From contig NZ_LMJJ01000012.1 in NCBI RefSeq assembly GCF_001429285.1, forward strand, positions 62,530 through 126,529: 64,000 nt of DNA, in the 5' to 3' direction. The notes under the pieces were generated by a model that had not been told where the DNA came from, ran no database searches, and saw only the letters and a program-made list of their open reading frames with translations. Positions 6,201-12,430 of the stretch are shown piece after piece. The DNA is from Ensifer sp. Root278 (lineage in GTDB: Bacteria > Pseudomonadota > Alphaproteobacteria > Rhizobiales > Rhizobiaceae). Made by a program: the position numbers and the translations under genes. How positions within the stretch are numbered: position 1 is the stretch's first letter; each line of letters starts with the position of its first letter.

Positions 6201-6633
6201 CCGCCGCCTGAAGCAAGCCAGCTAATGCAACGTCGCCTTGAAGCGATCCCGCACAGTTCCTCCGGTATTGATTCACCGAAACGCTCTATCTTCTTGTTTT
6301 TGCGCGCTGCGAAGGCAGCGCCGCTTTCTCTGGCAGCGGGCCGAGCCGAAGCGCATGTCCGCCTTGCCTTCAGCTACCTCGGCGCCTTGAGCACAACCCC
6401 ATCGCATGCCTCTAAATTTCCGCGCTGCGGAATTGTGGCTATTGAAAGGCAGGTGCGGCGCGTTAGGTGCTACCGGTAAGGGTGCCAAACGCGCCATTCC
6501 ACGCCAGGCTGCCGCGAAGTTGCTTGCGACCGCCAACTCCGAAACCGACCTGTCTCACGCGGCCCCGAACGGGGACCGGCGTTATGGAAAAAACCGTGCC
6601 GCGGCACCGTTCTTCAATGCGGGAGTTTCCATC
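6201..6633. other. 433-bp gap between selO and gcd
   Basis: No gene is recognised. A perfect 7-bp hairpin with loop GAAG (GCGCTGC/GCAGCGC, 6304-6321) lies about 100 bp after selO and may end its transcript, although it lacks a clean T-run. The open frame from 6406 into gcd has no family-like sequence before 6634. Confidence 0.4.
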
Positions 6634-8967
6634 ATGCTCATCCTGACGGCCATCGTCTTCGCTCTCATCGGCCTCGTGCTCGGTGGCGGCGGGGCCAAGC
6701 TGCTGATACTCGGCGGCAGCCCCTACTACCTCGTCGTCGGTATCGGCTTCCTGCTGACGGCCGTGCTCCTGTTCATGCGGAAATCGGCGGCGATCTGGCT
6801 CTATGCGTTCATTATCGTCGGCTCGCTCGGCTGGGCGATCTCGGAAGTCGGCTTCGACTGGTGGCAGCTTGGCCCGCGCGGCGGCGTCATCGTGCTTCTG
6901 GGGCTCTGGCTGCTGCTGCCGGCCGTCCGTCAGCCACTCGGCTTCCAGAGCCCTACGGGCGAGCGCTATGCGGTGAGCGCCTGGCCGCTGGCGATCGCCA
7001 TACTCATCTCGATCGGCGTGGCGGGCTATGCCCTGATGCTGGATCAGCACGATATCCGCGGCGATCTGCCAAGCGATGTCGTTGCCGCCAACCCGCCGCT
7101 GGGAGGTTCGGTGCCTCCGGGCGAATGGCATCAATACGGGCGCACGCCGTTCGGTCAAAGGTATTCGCCGCTCAATCAGATCACGCCGGACAATGTCGGC
7201 AATCTGAGGGTTGCCTGGCAATACCAGACAGGCGACGTCAAACGGCCCGACGACGTCGGGGAGACGACCTATCAGGTCACGCCGCTCAAGATCAAAGACA
7301 CGCTCTATGCCTGCACGCCGCACAATTGGGCGATCGCGCTCGATGCCGCAACCGGTGAGGAAAAATGGAAGTATGATTCCAACTCGGGCATGAACCCCGA
7401 CCGCCAGCATCAGACCTGCCGCGGTGTCACCTATTGGGCCGATCCGGCTGCCGCGCCGGGCAGCCCCTGCGCCGAGCGGGTCTACCTGCCGACCTCCGAT
7501 GCGCGCCTGATCGCGCTCGACGCGGCGACCGGCTCCGTCTGCACCAGCTTTGCCGATAACGGCGTGCTGCATCTCGAAACGGGCATGAAGTACAATCCGG
7601 CCGGCTACTATTATTCGACGTCACCACCGGTGGCCGTTGCCGGCAAGCTCATTATCGGCGGCGCCGTCAACGACAACTACTCGACCCAGGAACAATCCGG
7701 CGTCATCCGTGCCTTCGACATCAACACCGGCGCGCTGATCTGGAACTGGGACAGCGGCAACCCGGATGTAACGACGCCCCTTCCCGAGGGCCAGACCTAC
7801 ACGACCAACTCGCCAAACAGCTGGTCGGTGTTCAGCTACGACGAGGGCCTCGGCCTGGTCTACATCCCCATGGGCAACCAGGTGCCGGACCAGCTGGGCA
7901 TGGGCCGCAGCGAGCACGTCGAGAAATACTCGTCGTCAATCGTCGCGCTCGACATCAACTCCGGCGCCGTGCGCTGGGTGCGCCAGACCGTGCATCACGA
8001 CCTCTGGGACATGGACGTGCCGGCGCAACCGGCCTTGCTCGACATCACCAAGGAAGACGGCACAGTGGTGCCGGCGCTGGTCGGGCCGACGAAGCAGGGC
8101 GATATCTACGTGCTCGACCGCAGGAGCGGCGAGCCGATCATCCCCGTTGAGGAGGTTCAGGCGCCGGGCGGAGCGATCGCTGAGGATTTCACCGCGCCGA
8201 CGCAGCCGGTCTCCGGCCTCACCTTCATGCCTGCGCCGCTGCAGGAGAAGGACATGTGGGGCGTCACGCTCTTCGACCAGCTTGCCTGCCGCATCGCGTT
8301 CCGGTCGCTGAAATACGAGGGGCGCTACACGCCGCCGTCGATCGAAGGGACGCTCGTCTATCCCGGCAACTTCGGCACCTTCAATTGGGGCTCCGTCGCC
8401 ATCGATCCGGAACGGCAGGTGATGTTCGGCATGCCGACCTACCTTGCATTCACCTCGCGTCTCGTGCCTCGCGATCAGGTTCCGCCAAAGGGACAGGACG
8501 AGAAGGGATCGGAACAGGGCCTCAACCGCAACGACGGCGCGCCCTATGGCGTCTTTATGGGCCCCTTCCTCGGGCCGCTCGGCATTCCCTGCCAGGCGCC
8601 GCCATGGGGTTATGTCGCCGGCGCGGATCTTCGAACCGGCAAGATCGCCTACAAGCACAAGAATGGCACCGTCGAGGACATGACGCCGCTGCCGTTGCCG
8701 TTCAAGGTAGGTGTGCCAGGCATCGGCGGACCAATGATCACCAAGGGCGGCCTCGCCTTCCTCGGCGCCGCGGTCGACGACTATCTGCGCGCCTATGACC
8801 TGACGACCGGCCGCCAGCTCTGGGAAGCACGCCTGCCCGCCGGCGGCCAGTCGACACCGATGAGCTACGCGGTCGGCGACAAGCAATATGTGCTGATCGT
8901 CGCCGGGGGCCACGGCTCGGTCGGCACGAGGCCCGGCGACTACATCATCGCCTACACCCTGCCTTGA
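6634..8967 (+). CDS. gcd: Membrane-bound PQQ-dependent (quinoprotein) glucose dehydrogenase
   Basis: 777 residues, close to the roughly 800 of enterobacterial Gcd. It oxidises glucose to gluconolactone on the periplasmic face and passes electrons to ubiquinone; in rhizobia this supports gluconate formation and phosphate solubilisation. The first 150 residues form about five membrane helices (starting MLILTAIVFALIGLVLGG). The rest is an eight-bladed PQQ propeller beginning EWHQYGRTPFGQRYSPLNQI, with repeated blade motifs such as LIALDAATG and GALIWNWDSGN and a closing blade GGHGSVGTRPGDYIIAY. The start at 6634 follows GGGAG (6621-6625) and gives a proper first membrane helix. No pqq genes are nearby, so the cofactor must be made elsewhere. 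Confidence 0.92.
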   Translation: MLILTAIVFALIGLVLGGGGAKLLILGGSPYYLVVGIGFLLTAVLLFMRKSAAIWLYAFIIVGSLGWAISEVGFDWWQLGPRGGVIVLLGLWLLLPAVRQPLGFQSPTGERYAVSAWPLAIAILISIGVAGYALMLDQHDIRGDLPSDVVAANPPLGGSVPPGEWHQYGRTPFGQRYSPLNQITPDNVGNLRVAWQYQTGDVKRPDDVGETTYQVTPLKIKDTLYACTPHNWAIALDAATGEEKWKYDSNSGMNPDRQHQTCRGVTYWADPAAAPGSPCAERVYLPTSDARLIALDAATGSVCTSFADNGVLHLETGMKYNPAGYYYSTSPPVAVAGKLIIGGAVNDNYSTQEQSGVIRAFDINTGALIWNWDSGNPDVTTPLPEGQTYTTNSPNSWSVFSYDEGLGLVYIPMGNQVPDQLGMGRSEHVEKYSSSIVALDINSGAVRWVRQTVHHDLWDMDVPAQPALLDITKEDGTVVPALVGPTKQGDIYVLDRRSGEPIIPVEEVQAPGGAIAEDFTAPTQPVSGLTFMPAPLQEKDMWGVTLFDQLACRIAFRSLKYEGRYTPPSIEGTLVYPGNFGTFNWGSVAIDPERQVMFGMPTYLAFTSRLVPRDQVPPKGQDEKGSEQGLNRNDGAPYGVFMGPFLGPLGIPCQAPPWGYVAGADLRTGKIAYKHKNGTVEDMTPLPLPFKVGVPGIGGPMITKGGLAFLGAAVDDYLRAYDLTTGRQLWEARLPAGGQSTPMSYAVGDKQYVLIVAGGHGSVGTRPGDYIIAYTLP

Positions 8968-9789: not shown

Positions 9790-10203
9790 ATGTATTCCAT
9801 CGGCGATCTCTCACGGCGCACCGGCGTCAAAATCCCGACGATCCGCTATTACGAGCAGATGGGGCTGATCGCGGCACCCGAACGGTCCGAAGGCAACCAG
9901 CGGCGCTATGAGAAGAGCGAGCTCGAGCGACTTGCCTTCATCCGCCATGCGCGCGACCTCGGCCTGTCGATCGATTCCATCCGCGACTTGCTCGCCCTCA
10001 GCCAGCATCCGGAACGCCCGTGCGGCGAAGCCGACCGGATCGCCAGCGAACATCTGGCGACCGTTCGCGAGAAGATCGCCCGGCTGAAGAAGCTGGAGCA
10101 GGAACTGGAACGCATCGTCGCCTGCGACGGCAACCATACGGTGGGCGACTGCTATGTGATCCGGGCCCTGGCCGACCACTCGATGTGCGAAAACGAGCAC
10201 TGA
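9790..10203 (+). CDS. MerR family regulator, divalent-metal type (ZntR/CadR/PbrR-like)
   Basis: 137 residues. The N-terminal winged helix-turn-helix reads MYSIGDLSRRTGVKIPTIRYYEQ with the family's NQRRY wing. It is followed by a dimerisation helix (VREKIARLKKLEQELERIV) and a metal-binding loop. Cysteines at 78, 112 and 121 match the three-Cys pattern of Zn/Cd/Pb sensors; the C112-x8-C121 spacing is one residue longer than the Cu(I) sensor CueR. Family members activate efflux genes by untwisting a long-spacer promoter. No efflux ATPase or diffusion facilitator is adjacent, so the target is unknown. Start at ATG 9790, directly at the conserved domain. Confidence 0.85.
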   Translation: MYSIGDLSRRTGVKIPTIRYYEQMGLIAAPERSEGNQRRYEKSELERLAFIRHARDLGLSIDSIRDLLALSQHPERPCGEADRIASEHLATVREKIARLKKLEQELERIVACDGNHTVGDCYVIRALADHSMCENEH

Positions 10204-10242: not shown

Positions 10243-10270
10243 TTGACAAAATCGCGAAAACGAACAATCT
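10243..10270 (+). promoter_or_regulatory. Promoter for a leaderless attenuator transcript
   Basis: Consensus TTGACA at 10243-10248 and CAATCT at 10265-10270, 16-bp spacer. The predicted start of transcription coincides with the ATG of the leader ORF at 10278, so the mRNA would be leaderless, as known for the rhizobial trp leader. Confidence 0.65.
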
Positions 10271-10277
10271 AGCGCCC

Positions 10278-10328
10278 ATGATCAAGAACGCACCCATTTG
10301 CCGCGTGTATTTTTGGCTGTTCCGATAG
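10278..10328 (+). CDS. 16-residue aromatic-rich leader peptide (MIKNAPICRVYFWLFR)
   Basis: Short ORF with no ribosome-binding site, beginning where transcription should start. Codons 11-15 are Tyr-Phe-Trp-Leu-Phe (TAT TTT TGG CTG TTC), followed by Arg and the stop. Downstream lie antiterminator and terminator hairpins whose formation would depend on where a ribosome pauses in this ORF. The layout parallels the leaderless trpL of Sinorhizobium, but the peptide is different and the downstream gene is an acetyltransferase. Translation is inferred from the architecture. Confidence 0.6.
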   Translation: MIKNAPICRVYFWLFR

Positions 10329-10382
10329 GAGCGGCCTGCTGATCATATTCAACAAGGCCGCCATCAGGCGGCTTTTGTTTTT
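10300..10382 (+). promoter_or_regulatory. Four-segment transcription attenuator
   Basis: Segment 1 GCCGC (10300-10304, inside the leader ORF) can pair with segment 2 GCGGC (10331-10335). Segment 2 GCGGCCT (10331-10337) can instead pair with segment 3 AGGCCGC (10355-10361) as antiterminator. Segment 3 overlaps GCCGCC (10357-10362), which pairs with segment 4 GGCGGC (10367-10372) to form the terminator. A ribosome stalled on the aromatic codons would cover segment 1 and free 2:3; one finishing at the stop would cover segment 2 and allow 3:4. Confidence 0.65.
10354..10382 (+). terminator. Intrinsic terminator of the attenuator
   Basis: GCCGCC-ATCA-GGCGGC stem-loop (10357-10372), extended by A-T/G-U pairs and followed by TTTTGTTTTT (10373-10382), 38 bp before the GNAT start codon. 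Confidence 0.8.
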
Positions 10383-10420
10383 CCGGCTCCTGATGGCGAG
10401 AAAACCCGAGGAGCCAAGAC

Positions 10421-10924
10421 ATGCTACAGACCGCCATCCCTACCCTTCATCCGGTCCCGTCGACGCGGCCACCGATGGTCACGATCCGCTGCGCCAAGCA
10501 GCGCGACCTGCCGGAACTGCGCGAGATGATCGCCGAGCTTGCCGCCCACCACGGCGATGCCGCGCCGATCACGCCCGAACAGCTCGAGCGCGATCTCTTC
10601 GGCCGCACGCCCTGGATCACGGCACTCGTTGCCGAGGCCGGCAATCGGCTGATCGGCTATGCGATCCTGGTGCCGATCTACCGGGCAGCCGAAGGTGCAC
10701 GCGGCATGGAACTGCATCACCTCTTCGTTCGCCCTGAAAGCCGCGGCACCGGCATCGGCCGTCACCTCGTTGCCAAGGCGCGCGAGCAGGCGAAGATGGC
10801 CGGCTGCGACTTCCTTTCGGTCAGCGCCGCCACGGGCAACTTCCAGGCGCATCATTTCTACGAATCCGAACGCTTCGTGCCTCGTCCGGTGACCGGCATG
10901 CGCTATATGCAGAAGCTTGGATGA
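10421..10924 (+). CDS. GNAT family N-acetyltransferase
   Basis: 167 residues. The acetyl-CoA-binding signature is seen as LHHLFVRPESRGTGIGRHLV (RGTGIG pyrophosphate loop), followed by the C-terminal HFYESERFVPR strand. The fold resembles diamine/aminoglycoside-like acetyltransferases, but the acceptor cannot be told. The start at 10421 is fixed by GAGGAG (10409-10414), 6 nt upstream; the alternative ATG at 10475 has no such site. It lies behind an attenuator and 10 bp ahead of a DJ-1 family gene, so both are probably one transcript controlled by the leader. Confidence 0.88.
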   Translation: MLQTAIPTLHPVPSTRPPMVTIRCAKQRDLPELREMIAELAAHHGDAAPITPEQLERDLFGRTPWITALVAEAGNRLIGYAILVPIYRAAEGARGMELHHLFVRPESRGTGIGRHLVAKAREQAKMAGCDFLSVSAATGNFQAHHFYESERFVPRPVTGMRYMQKLG

Positions 10925-10934
10925 GGATCGAACG

Positions 10935-11522
10935 ATGCGTCTTGCAATCGTGCTCTGTGAAGGCTTCGCCGATTGGGAATGTGCGCTGTTGATGGCGGCG
11001 GCGCGCACCCATCTCGGCATCGATGTCGAGGTCGCCACAGCCGACGGCGCACGCGTGACGTCGATGGGCGGGCTCGACGTCTCGGCGCATCTGTCGATCG
11101 ACGCGCTCGATCCTGCGGGCTTCGATGGCTTGGTGATCTGCGGCGGATCGATCTGGGACACGAATGAGGCTCCTGATCTCTCGACAACGATCCGCGCTTT
11201 CGATCGCGACAAGCGGGTGGTCGCGGCCATCTGCGGTGGTGTCAATGCGCTCGCCACAAGCGGTCTTCTCAACGGCATCGACCACACCGGCAACAGCGCC
11301 GAAAGCCTTGCGGCGCTGCCCGGCTATCGCGGTGGGCCGCACTATCGCGATCAGCCGCAGGCACTGCGCGGCGGCCATGTCGTCACCGCCGCCGGAACCG
11401 CGCCGATCAGTTTTGCCGGCGAGATCCTGCACGGACTTGGCCTTGGCTCGACGGAACTCGACGGCTTTCTCGCGCTCTACGGACACGAGCATCGGACGAA
11501 TGAAAGCGGCAGCGTCGGCTGA
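10935..11522 (+). CDS. DJ-1/PfpI family protein (class I glutamine-amidotransferase-like)
   Basis: 195 residues with the DJ-1/PfpI flavodoxin-like fold. It opens MRLAIVLCEGFADWECALLM, where the Glu of the catalytic pair is expected, and has the nucleophile elbow AAICGG with Cys100. Relatives act as glyoxalases, deglycases, chaperones or peptidases, and the activity here is not predictable. It begins 10 bp after the acetyltransferase stop with GAGG in the gap, so the two form an operon. A mosaic repeat follows. Confidence 0.85.
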   Translation: MRLAIVLCEGFADWECALLMAAARTHLGIDVEVATADGARVTSMGGLDVSAHLSIDALDPAGFDGLVICGGSIWDTNEAPDLSTTIRAFDRDKRVVAAICGGVNALATSGLLNGIDHTGNSAESLAALPGYRGGPHYRDQPQALRGGHVVTAAGTAPISFAGEILHGLGLGSTELDGFLALYGHEHRTNESGSVG

Positions 11523-11540
11523 GACTTGCGCTAAAGCGCC

Positions 11541-11636
11541 GTGCGTTCTTATGAACGCACAAAGGTCGCTCTAGCACTTTGATTCTAGAGCATCTTTCTG
11601 CCCACAGCGATTCCACTTGAGGGCAGGATGCTCTAG
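11541..11636. repeat. Palindromic repeat R2, subtype a, copy 1
   Basis: Hairpin GTGCGTTC/GAACGCAC (11541-11560), then AAAGGTCGCTCTAGCACTTTG, then a second hairpin CTAGAGCATC (11585-11594) / GATGCTCTAG (11627-11636) with inner CTGCCC/GGGCAG. The end of the repeat contains the stop codon of the convergent nitroreductase gene. Confidence 0.85.
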
Positions 11637-12307: not shown

Positions 12308-12335
12308 TCAGTCTCCTCCTCGTTGTCCTGCAGCA

Positions 12336-12430
12336 ACGCGCGCCCCTCTTGACGCACAAAGGTCGCTGCAGCACTTTGAATTCCTGCATGTTTTTCCCCT
12401 CAACCGGTGACGATCGGGGAAAGCATGCAG
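12336..12430. repeat. Palindromic repeat R2, subtype b, copy 3
   Basis: Shares the core GACGCACAAAGGTCGCTGCAG and GCACTTTGAATT with the other R2 copies. Its second hairpin is CTGCATG (12384-12390) / CATGCAG (12424-12430) with inner TTTCCCC/GGGGAAA. It lies between the nitroreductase start and the diheme cytochrome stop. Confidence 0.85.

Follow-up and report, generated by a model that had tools for sequence, protein, structure and literature searches.

The leader peptides of ermC and cat are translational attenuators, the Bacillus subtilis at operon combines two layers of control, and an auxiliary tryptophanyl-tRNA synthetase (TrpRS) of Streptomyces is under ribosome-mediated attenuation. In the accessible part of PMC1262725, trpS2 of Streptomyces avermitilis figures as an attenuator candidate. 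For Sinorhizobium meliloti, the available portions of PMC7298713 and PMC10117765 describe trpL/rnTrpL as a leaderless upstream ORF (uORF) of 14-19 codons on a short attenuator RNA.

Attenuators of this mechanism are already known. The element analyzed here is a leader upstream of a GNAT N-acetyltransferase gene in a 64,000-nt stretch of DNA (the window) that belongs to the 7.1-Mb genome of Ensifer sp. Root278. As in ermC, cat and at, a hairpin is predicted to mask the Shine-Dalgarno sequence (SD) and would be opened by a stalled ribosome; unlike in those systems, the same RNA also carries the intrinsic terminator of an amino-acid attenuator of the Gram-negative type. The auxiliary TrpRS of Streptomyces, a synthetase and not an acetyltransferase, may offer a parallel, in that attenuation may in both cases couple defective tRNA charging to resistance. 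As far as the available portions of PMC7298713 and PMC10117765 describe trpL/rnTrpL, the GNAT leader resembles it in its leaderless-type uORF, in control codons placed in the second half of that ORF and in the choice between antiterminator and terminator. It differs from it in carrying one codon each for Tyr, Phe and Trp before a GNAT gene instead of consecutive Trp codons before trpE(G), so that the run of Trp codons ahead of trpE that marks trpL/rnTrpL is absent, and also in having covarying helices that reach the SD. With the classical amino-acid and aminoacyl-tRNA synthetase (pheST) attenuators of Proteobacteria, as covered in the accessible part of PMC1262725, it would share its mechanism, and its family members before tyrS, tyrA and trpS have codons that match the pathway; unlike those attenuators, the GNAT leader has mixed rather than repeated control codons, and no biosynthetic or charging role is known for its target. 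In the literature searched (titles and the starts of abstracts, with few subscription papers), we recognized no description of a three-aromatic control region, a GNAT target or a coupled SD lock, and the word acetyltransferase does not occur in the main text of any of PMC10117765, PMC12218461 and PMC3616915.

Anatomy and conservation of the leader

A preliminary description of this DNA had proposed a complete leader-peptide attenuator in front of a GNAT/DJ-1 operon. The TTGACA, the -10, the ATG, the ORF, the pairing segments and the U tract that it named are all present, and are listed here with the further segments and neighboring genes used below:

9790..10203, + strand: MerR-family regulator, upstream of the leader
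10243..10271, + strand: promoter-like element, with -35 TTGACA at 10243-10248 and a weak -10, CAATCT/AATCTA, at 10265-10271
10278..10328, + strand: leader ORF MIKNAPICRVYFWLFR*, leaderless-type, with ATG at 10278 and stop codon TAG at 10326-10328
10308..10316, + strand: control codons TAT TTT TGG (Tyr-Phe-Trp)
10315..10323, + strand: segment 1, GGCTGTTCC, paired with 10328-10336 in the MFE fold
10328..10337, + strand: segment 2, GGAGCGGCCT, overlapping the end of the stop codon by one base; its partner is segment 1 or 3
10340..10346, + strand: TGATCAT, paired in the MFE fold with its complement ATGATCA at the 5' end (10278-10284)
10354..10362, + strand: segment 3, AAGGCCGCC, antiterminator strand or 5' arm of the terminator
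10359..10368, + strand: segment 4', CGCCATCAGG, end of the terminator 5' arm, its loop and two further bases; complementary to segment 5
10367..10382, + strand: segment 4, GGCGGCTTT, with the U tract; 3' side of the terminator (9 pairs, loop of 4)
10385..10398, + strand: segment 5, GGCTCCTGATGGCG; 10389-10398 pairs with 4' and 10385-10391 with the SD
10409..10415, + strand: segment 6, AGGAGCC, the SD of the GNAT gene
10421..10924, + strand: GNAT N-acetyltransferase (PF00583, 1.2e-16), the constant gene behind the leader
10935..11522, + strand: DJ-1/PfpI family protein (PF01965, 6.6e-25), an optional second gene

The spacing of the promoter-like -35 and -10 would put a transcription start at the ATG at 10278 or next to it, and on this promoter-to-ATG spacing the ORF is a candidate leaderless ORF, in keeping with the geometry proposed earlier. 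A strict scan with an E. coli-type consensus does not pass the leader promoter because its -10 is weak. Of the 324 short ATG-to-stop ORFs in the window, a single one has Tyr, Phe and Trp adjacent, which is therefore the leader ORF at 10278-10328; as a weaker control, shuffling the residues of the leader peptide brings the three together in 5.6% of cases. Given that Phe is encoded by TTC in 53 and by TTT in 4 of the 57 cases in six neighboring genes, the TTT of the leader is a rare codon, and it may sharpen ribosome stalling. The Tyr codon TAT is not rare in the same genes (TAT 35 of 65, TAC 30).

Relatives of the GNAT were collected by a contig scan with seven GNATs (A1); this found 372, of which the best 80 were examined, these being picked by their GNAT protein and not by their leader. 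In each of these best 80 of 372 loci, a 16- or 17-codon ORF upstream of the GNAT contains Tyr-Phe with Trp directly after the pair (YFW, 61/80) or before it (WYF, 19/80), an exact TTGACA starts 34-38 nt 5' of the ATG, and a terminator-type hairpin follows; the end of the peptide, its start, the terminator and the spacing of the promoter are likewise preserved in 80/80. The leader at 10243-10420 is thus real and conserved, and the alignment of orthologous 5' regions that the preliminary description had suggested as a check bears out its Tyr, Phe and Trp codons. That description had remarked on single rather than repeated control codons; there is indeed a single control codon for each of the three aromatics, and what it had missed is that this very set is the conserved pattern. 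Tyr is TAT and Phe is TTT in all of the best 80 of 372 loci, which makes a constraint at the level of bases possible. To explain YFW and WYF on the GNAT tree takes two changes, and for one of these the well-supported branches leave no alternative.

The pattern extends through the genus and the family, in sets of GNAT leaders (80, 25, 20 and 20) that overlap in part. All 15 same-genus genomes searched matched the leader-GNAT stretch, and their 15 leaders were aligned; among the matches listed, the closest named GNAT is identical and comes from Ensifer sesbaniae (L040). In the alignment with these leaders the three residues are adjacent in 19 of 20, the exception and the sole same-genus leader without Tyr being L015 (genome G014), in which Phe replaces Tyr to give FFW. 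The GNAT frame of L015 diverges from the others near its C-terminus, and this locus may reflect decay or a sequence error. In Rhizobiaceae at large, the GNAT is found at E<=1e-30 in 101 of 394 genomes, and the leader lies <=900 nt from it, as a covariance-model match, in 68/68 of those compared; G002, G005 and G006, whose leaders were read in the alignment with the same-genus leaders, and 30 genomes that are not among the covariance-model matches listed were set aside. Tyr, Phe and Trp are adjacent in 25/25 GNAT leaders of Rhizobiaceae and in 4/4 of other families. Among 20 further Rhizobiaceae leaders that matched the covariance model, the three aromatics are adjacent in 19, once as WFYY (L245), and L243 has Tyr-Phe without Trp.

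Alternative helices and the Shine-Dalgarno sequence

All three alternative pairings drawn in the preliminary description are exact in the window, namely: 1) GCCGC at 10300-10304 with GCGGC at 10331-10335; 2) 10331-10337 with 10355-10361; 3) GCCGCC at 10357-10362 with GGCGGC at 10367-10372, followed by TTTTGTTTTT at 10373-10382. The first stem as drawn is nevertheless rarely conserved, GCCGC being present in 19 of 76 unique leaders, and is not upheld. A hairpin that encloses the stop codon, made in the window by 10315-10323 and 10328-10336, is possible in 76/76 unique leaders, and the 5' end has a 5-nt Watson-Crick match to the TGATCAT-type segment in 53 of the 76. Folding of the leader RNA (10278-10385) lies 4.6 sd below dinucleotide shuffles, with 0 of 200 shuffles as low, and a terminator scan, which is a weaker control, found 2 sites against a shuffle mean of 1.4. 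Together with the positions of the elements and their conservation in the best 80 of 372 loci, this folding bears out the anatomy of a complete leader-peptide attenuator, in which a short ORF has its control codons directly before the stop and is followed by a mutually exclusive antiterminator and terminator with a U tract, the last being absent in four leaders of one genus.

We propose that the leader is probably a ribosome-mediated attenuator that switches on the GNAT when charged aromatic tRNA is short. Ribosomes would begin on the leaderless AUG; with Tyr-, Phe- and Trp-tRNA plentiful, the ribosome would proceed to the stop codon and cover segment 2, upon which the terminator 3:4 would form and the RNA would end after ~105 nt. 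A stall at Tyr, Phe or Trp would instead leave 2:3 free to pair, and RNA polymerase would read on. With equilibrium folding up to the end of the terminator, P(terminator) is 0.75-1.00 at every ribosome position in nine leaders; as this measure is insensitive to the ribosome, pairing was followed in the RNA that exists before arm 4, with the bases 5' of the front edge of the ribosome kept unpaired. P(2:3) is then 0.79, 0.85 and 0.89 with Y11, F12 and W13 in the A site, and drops to 0.33 at R16 and 0.02 at the stop codon. These three codons do not stand out in the folding model, since P(2:3) is similar at V10, L14 and F15 (0.79, 0.89 and 0.83) and in ribosome-free RNA (0.78); by this model, a stall anywhere in codons 10-15 would antiterminate. 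At the stop codon P(2:3) is 0.00-0.12 in 11 of 16 leaders and 0.29-0.49 in three (L142, L152 and L154), and it stays at 0.81-0.94 in two (L205 and L207).

Absent from the preliminary description is a pairing that reaches the SD of the GNAT gene. Segment 5 can pair either with 4' or with segment 6, and both helices show compensatory changes: GGCUCCU:AGGAGCC, GCGUCCU:AGGACGC and CGUCCU:AGGACG for 5:6, and CGCCAUCAGG:CCUGAUGGCG and CGCCGCAAGG:CCUUGCGGCG for 4':5. Among 73 unique leaders in 12 groups defined by peptide ending, a segment's own partner is better than swapped partners in 12/12 groups for 5:6 (one of them equal at the precision printed) and in 11/12 for 4':5. In the wider family, which includes the leaders before other genes described below, own beats swapped in 21 of 23 leaders for 5:6 and 22 of 23 for 4':5, with p-values that are indicative only because the sequences are related; L207, in which the start motif was not found, was dropped from the 24, and the result for L206 is inflated by a 5-nt overlap between segments 5 and 6 in this test. 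Of the 20 further Rhizobiaceae leaders read, 14 entered the test, and own beats swapped in 9 (5:6) and 13 (4':5). Pairing of 5:6 is no better than swapped in L152, L156, L241, L242, L246, L248 and L249, and L156 and L243 fail the test for 4':5.

Given these helices, we lean slightly towards a second, translational lock. Once 2:3 had formed, the free 4' would capture segment 5 as it emerged and hold it off the SD; with 3:4 formed, 5 would pair with 6, and leaky read-through mRNA would go untranslated. When 2:3 is imposed before segment 6 emerges, mean P(4':5) is 0.97 and exceeds 0.5 in 80/80 loci (best 80 of 372), and it drops to 0.16 when the RNA extends 20 nt beyond the ATG. At equilibrium in the full-length RNA, the SD is masked alike in both states (mean unpaired 0.19 vs 0.18), being more open in 5, less open in 1 and equal in 74 of these 80 leaders (best 80 of 372). 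Hence the lock would need kinetics; step-by-step folding is the one analysis that backs the SD switch, and equilibrium folding of the read-through mRNA lends it no support.

It is possible, though less likely than not, that the element attenuates transcription only, with 5:6 a fixed translational damper and 4':5 acting elsewhere, for instance in RNA stability or in a trans-acting sRNA like rnTrpL. The equilibrium masking of the SD in both states would agree with this, as would the action in trans of the S. meliloti trp attenuator RNA and its peptide, as reported in the available portion of PMC7298713. On the other hand, 4':5 and 5:6 have bases in common and each of them covaries, and both helices are kept in L238, L239, L240 and L244, four leaders of one genus that have the hairpin with no U tract directly behind it. 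In these four, the energy of 5:6 ranges from -15.0 to -16.0 kcal/mol and that of 4':5 from -15.9 to -22.6, and the least stable 4':5 lies close to its swapped mean of -15.0; the four fit translational control alone.

Homologous leaders before tyrS, tyrA and trpS

A covariance model (R1) was run on the same genome and on 297 genomes of the order, and a second (R2) on 289 genomes of the class. In the same genome R1 gave a second strong match (3.8e-16), which had been overlooked in the preliminary description: a leader (L142), MIKTALIAAIYYATSP, before a copy of the tyrosyl-tRNA synthetase gene (TIGR00234, 1.2e-82). That genome has two tyrS matches, at L142 (C40:847786-848616) and at C11:21489-22277, and the reading frame of the copy under the Tyr-Tyr leader L142 shifts after ~277 codons, through mutation or sequence error. 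The order and class searches extend the family as follows, gene identities coming from family searches for TrpRS, TyrRS, two TyrA, three GNAT and S4, and otherwise from phmmer:

tyrS: L152, L153, L162 and L205 (order and class searches), and further L142, L199, L229 and L230
tyrA: L154, L155, L156, L208 and L211
trpS: L207 and L218, both Trp-Trp
small S4-domain protein: L210
GNATs with WYF in distant Alphaproteobacteria: L203, L204, L206 and L209

The tyrS and tyrA leaders are mostly Tyr-Tyr, though L205 (tyrS) has Tyr-Phe. The leader L210, also Tyr-Phe, precedes an S4-domain protein of 92 aa that weakly matches the C-terminal domain of TyrRS. Tyr, Phe and Trp occur together in 0/16 homologous leaders before tyrS, tyrA, trpS or the S4-domain gene. 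The window GNAT is distantly related to those of the wider family (phmmer 4e-7 to 6e-10 in three); that of L203 has no phmmer match at 1e-6 and is a GNAT by Pfam.

In the relatives before tyrS, tyrA and trpS the control codons thus fit the regulated gene, which is our main reason for interpreting it as an attenuator that responds to amino acids. Attenuators of tyrS or trpS are most likely to be mentioned in Vitreschak 2004 and Lopatovskaya 2010, and we therefore claim no novelty for these. The preliminary description had left open whether the leader senses aromatic amino-acid supply or stalling by an antibiotic; the homologous Tyr-Tyr leaders of tyrS and tyrA and Trp-Trp leaders of trpS favor supply over antibiotic-induced arrest. 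An arrest peptide, on which a drug would stall the ribosome at YFWLF and so induce a GNAT that inactivates it, appears improbable: GNATs do include antibiotic acetyltransferases, such models match the window GNAT weakly and far below cut-offs, and the peptide end is conserved, but the order of the residues changes (YFW, WYF, WFYY), the last residue of the peptide varies (R, P, L, S, Q) and the homologous leaders bear codons matched to their genes. That the conserved bases are instead an RNA element, such as a pause or protein site, with Tyr-Phe-Trp a by-product, is very improbable, for the invariance of TAT and TTT in 80/80 (best 80 of 372), where neighboring genes use TTC in 53 of 57 but TAT is not rare, is countered by TAC for Tyr in L018 and in the WFYY leader L245, by the Trp codon having moved across YF in one set, where Thr occupies its usual position, and by the match of Tyr-Tyr and Trp-Trp to gene function across the family.

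Several weaker matches were set apart from these counts. They comprise five of the seven R1 matches in the same genome (E 0.06-0.64), order-search matches at E 8.8e-4 to 0.01, which are weak or partial (L160, L164, L172 and L173 being scanned for peptides only), and the class-search matches L214-L217 and L221 (partial). L157 was dropped as its ORF reads, by eye, as the end of a longer gene; five weak Rhizobiaceae covariance matches resemble plain terminators, and L212, L213, L219, L220 and L222 from the class search were judged to be chance. Rfam at gathering score gave 0 matches over the whole window, and in five related loci two matches up to E 0.5, both at the trpS locus L207 and below the gathering score (Trp_leader, E 0.16).

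The acetyltransferase and its neighborhood

The GNAT acetyltransferase is the constant gene behind the leader, and the unusual target named in the preliminary description is upheld. DJ-1 lies directly downstream of it in 44/80 loci (best 80 of 372) and does not adjoin it in the annotated S. meliloti record, and a MerR-family match occurs <=2.5 kb upstream in 56/80 (best 80 of 372). With such frequencies neither gene defines the unit, and the earlier view of a GNAT/DJ-1 operon as that unit finds no support. The predicted model of the GNAT (pLDDT 85.6) has an SSAT-like fold; its best fold matches include 2fe7, 3bj7 and 2bei, and it has a profile match to 2bei at 5.7e-17. By sequence and fold it is closest to diamine and thialysine acetyltransferases, and by this similarity it is assigned to the SSAT/thialysine type. 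For a cell short of an aromatic amino acid, it would make little sense to acetylate that same amino acid. We infer that the probable substrate of the GNAT is a small amine, either an aromatic amino-acid analogue or an inhibitor of the synthesis or charging of these amino acids, and that the role of the enzyme would be one of detoxification.

More speculatively, and unlikely to hold in all its parts, the leaders might form one alphaproteobacterial RNA class that combines single-codon sensing of Tyr, Phe and Trp with termination and a kinetic SD lock, its three-aromatic version driving a defense GNAT against aromatic inhibitors or analogues as a partner to the leader-controlled TyrRS and TrpRS genes. 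Were the GNAT leader to work as proposed, attenuation would extend from amino-acid genes to an enzyme outside them, and termination and SD masking might be combined in one ribosome-read RNA. The leader could serve as an assay, in that a stress that empties aromatic tRNAs would be what the GNAT answers, and the family (GNAT, tyrS, tyrA, trpS) supplies natural variants of the control codons.

Farther out in the window, two 57-nt direct repeats that are 74% identical (11526-11582 and 12323-12379) flank a nitroreductase gene. The gene at 6406-8967 looks, by eye, like a PQQ-type dehydrogenase, and an annotated glucose/quinate/shikimate PQQ-dependent dehydrogenase is also found near the GNAT of S. 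meliloti.
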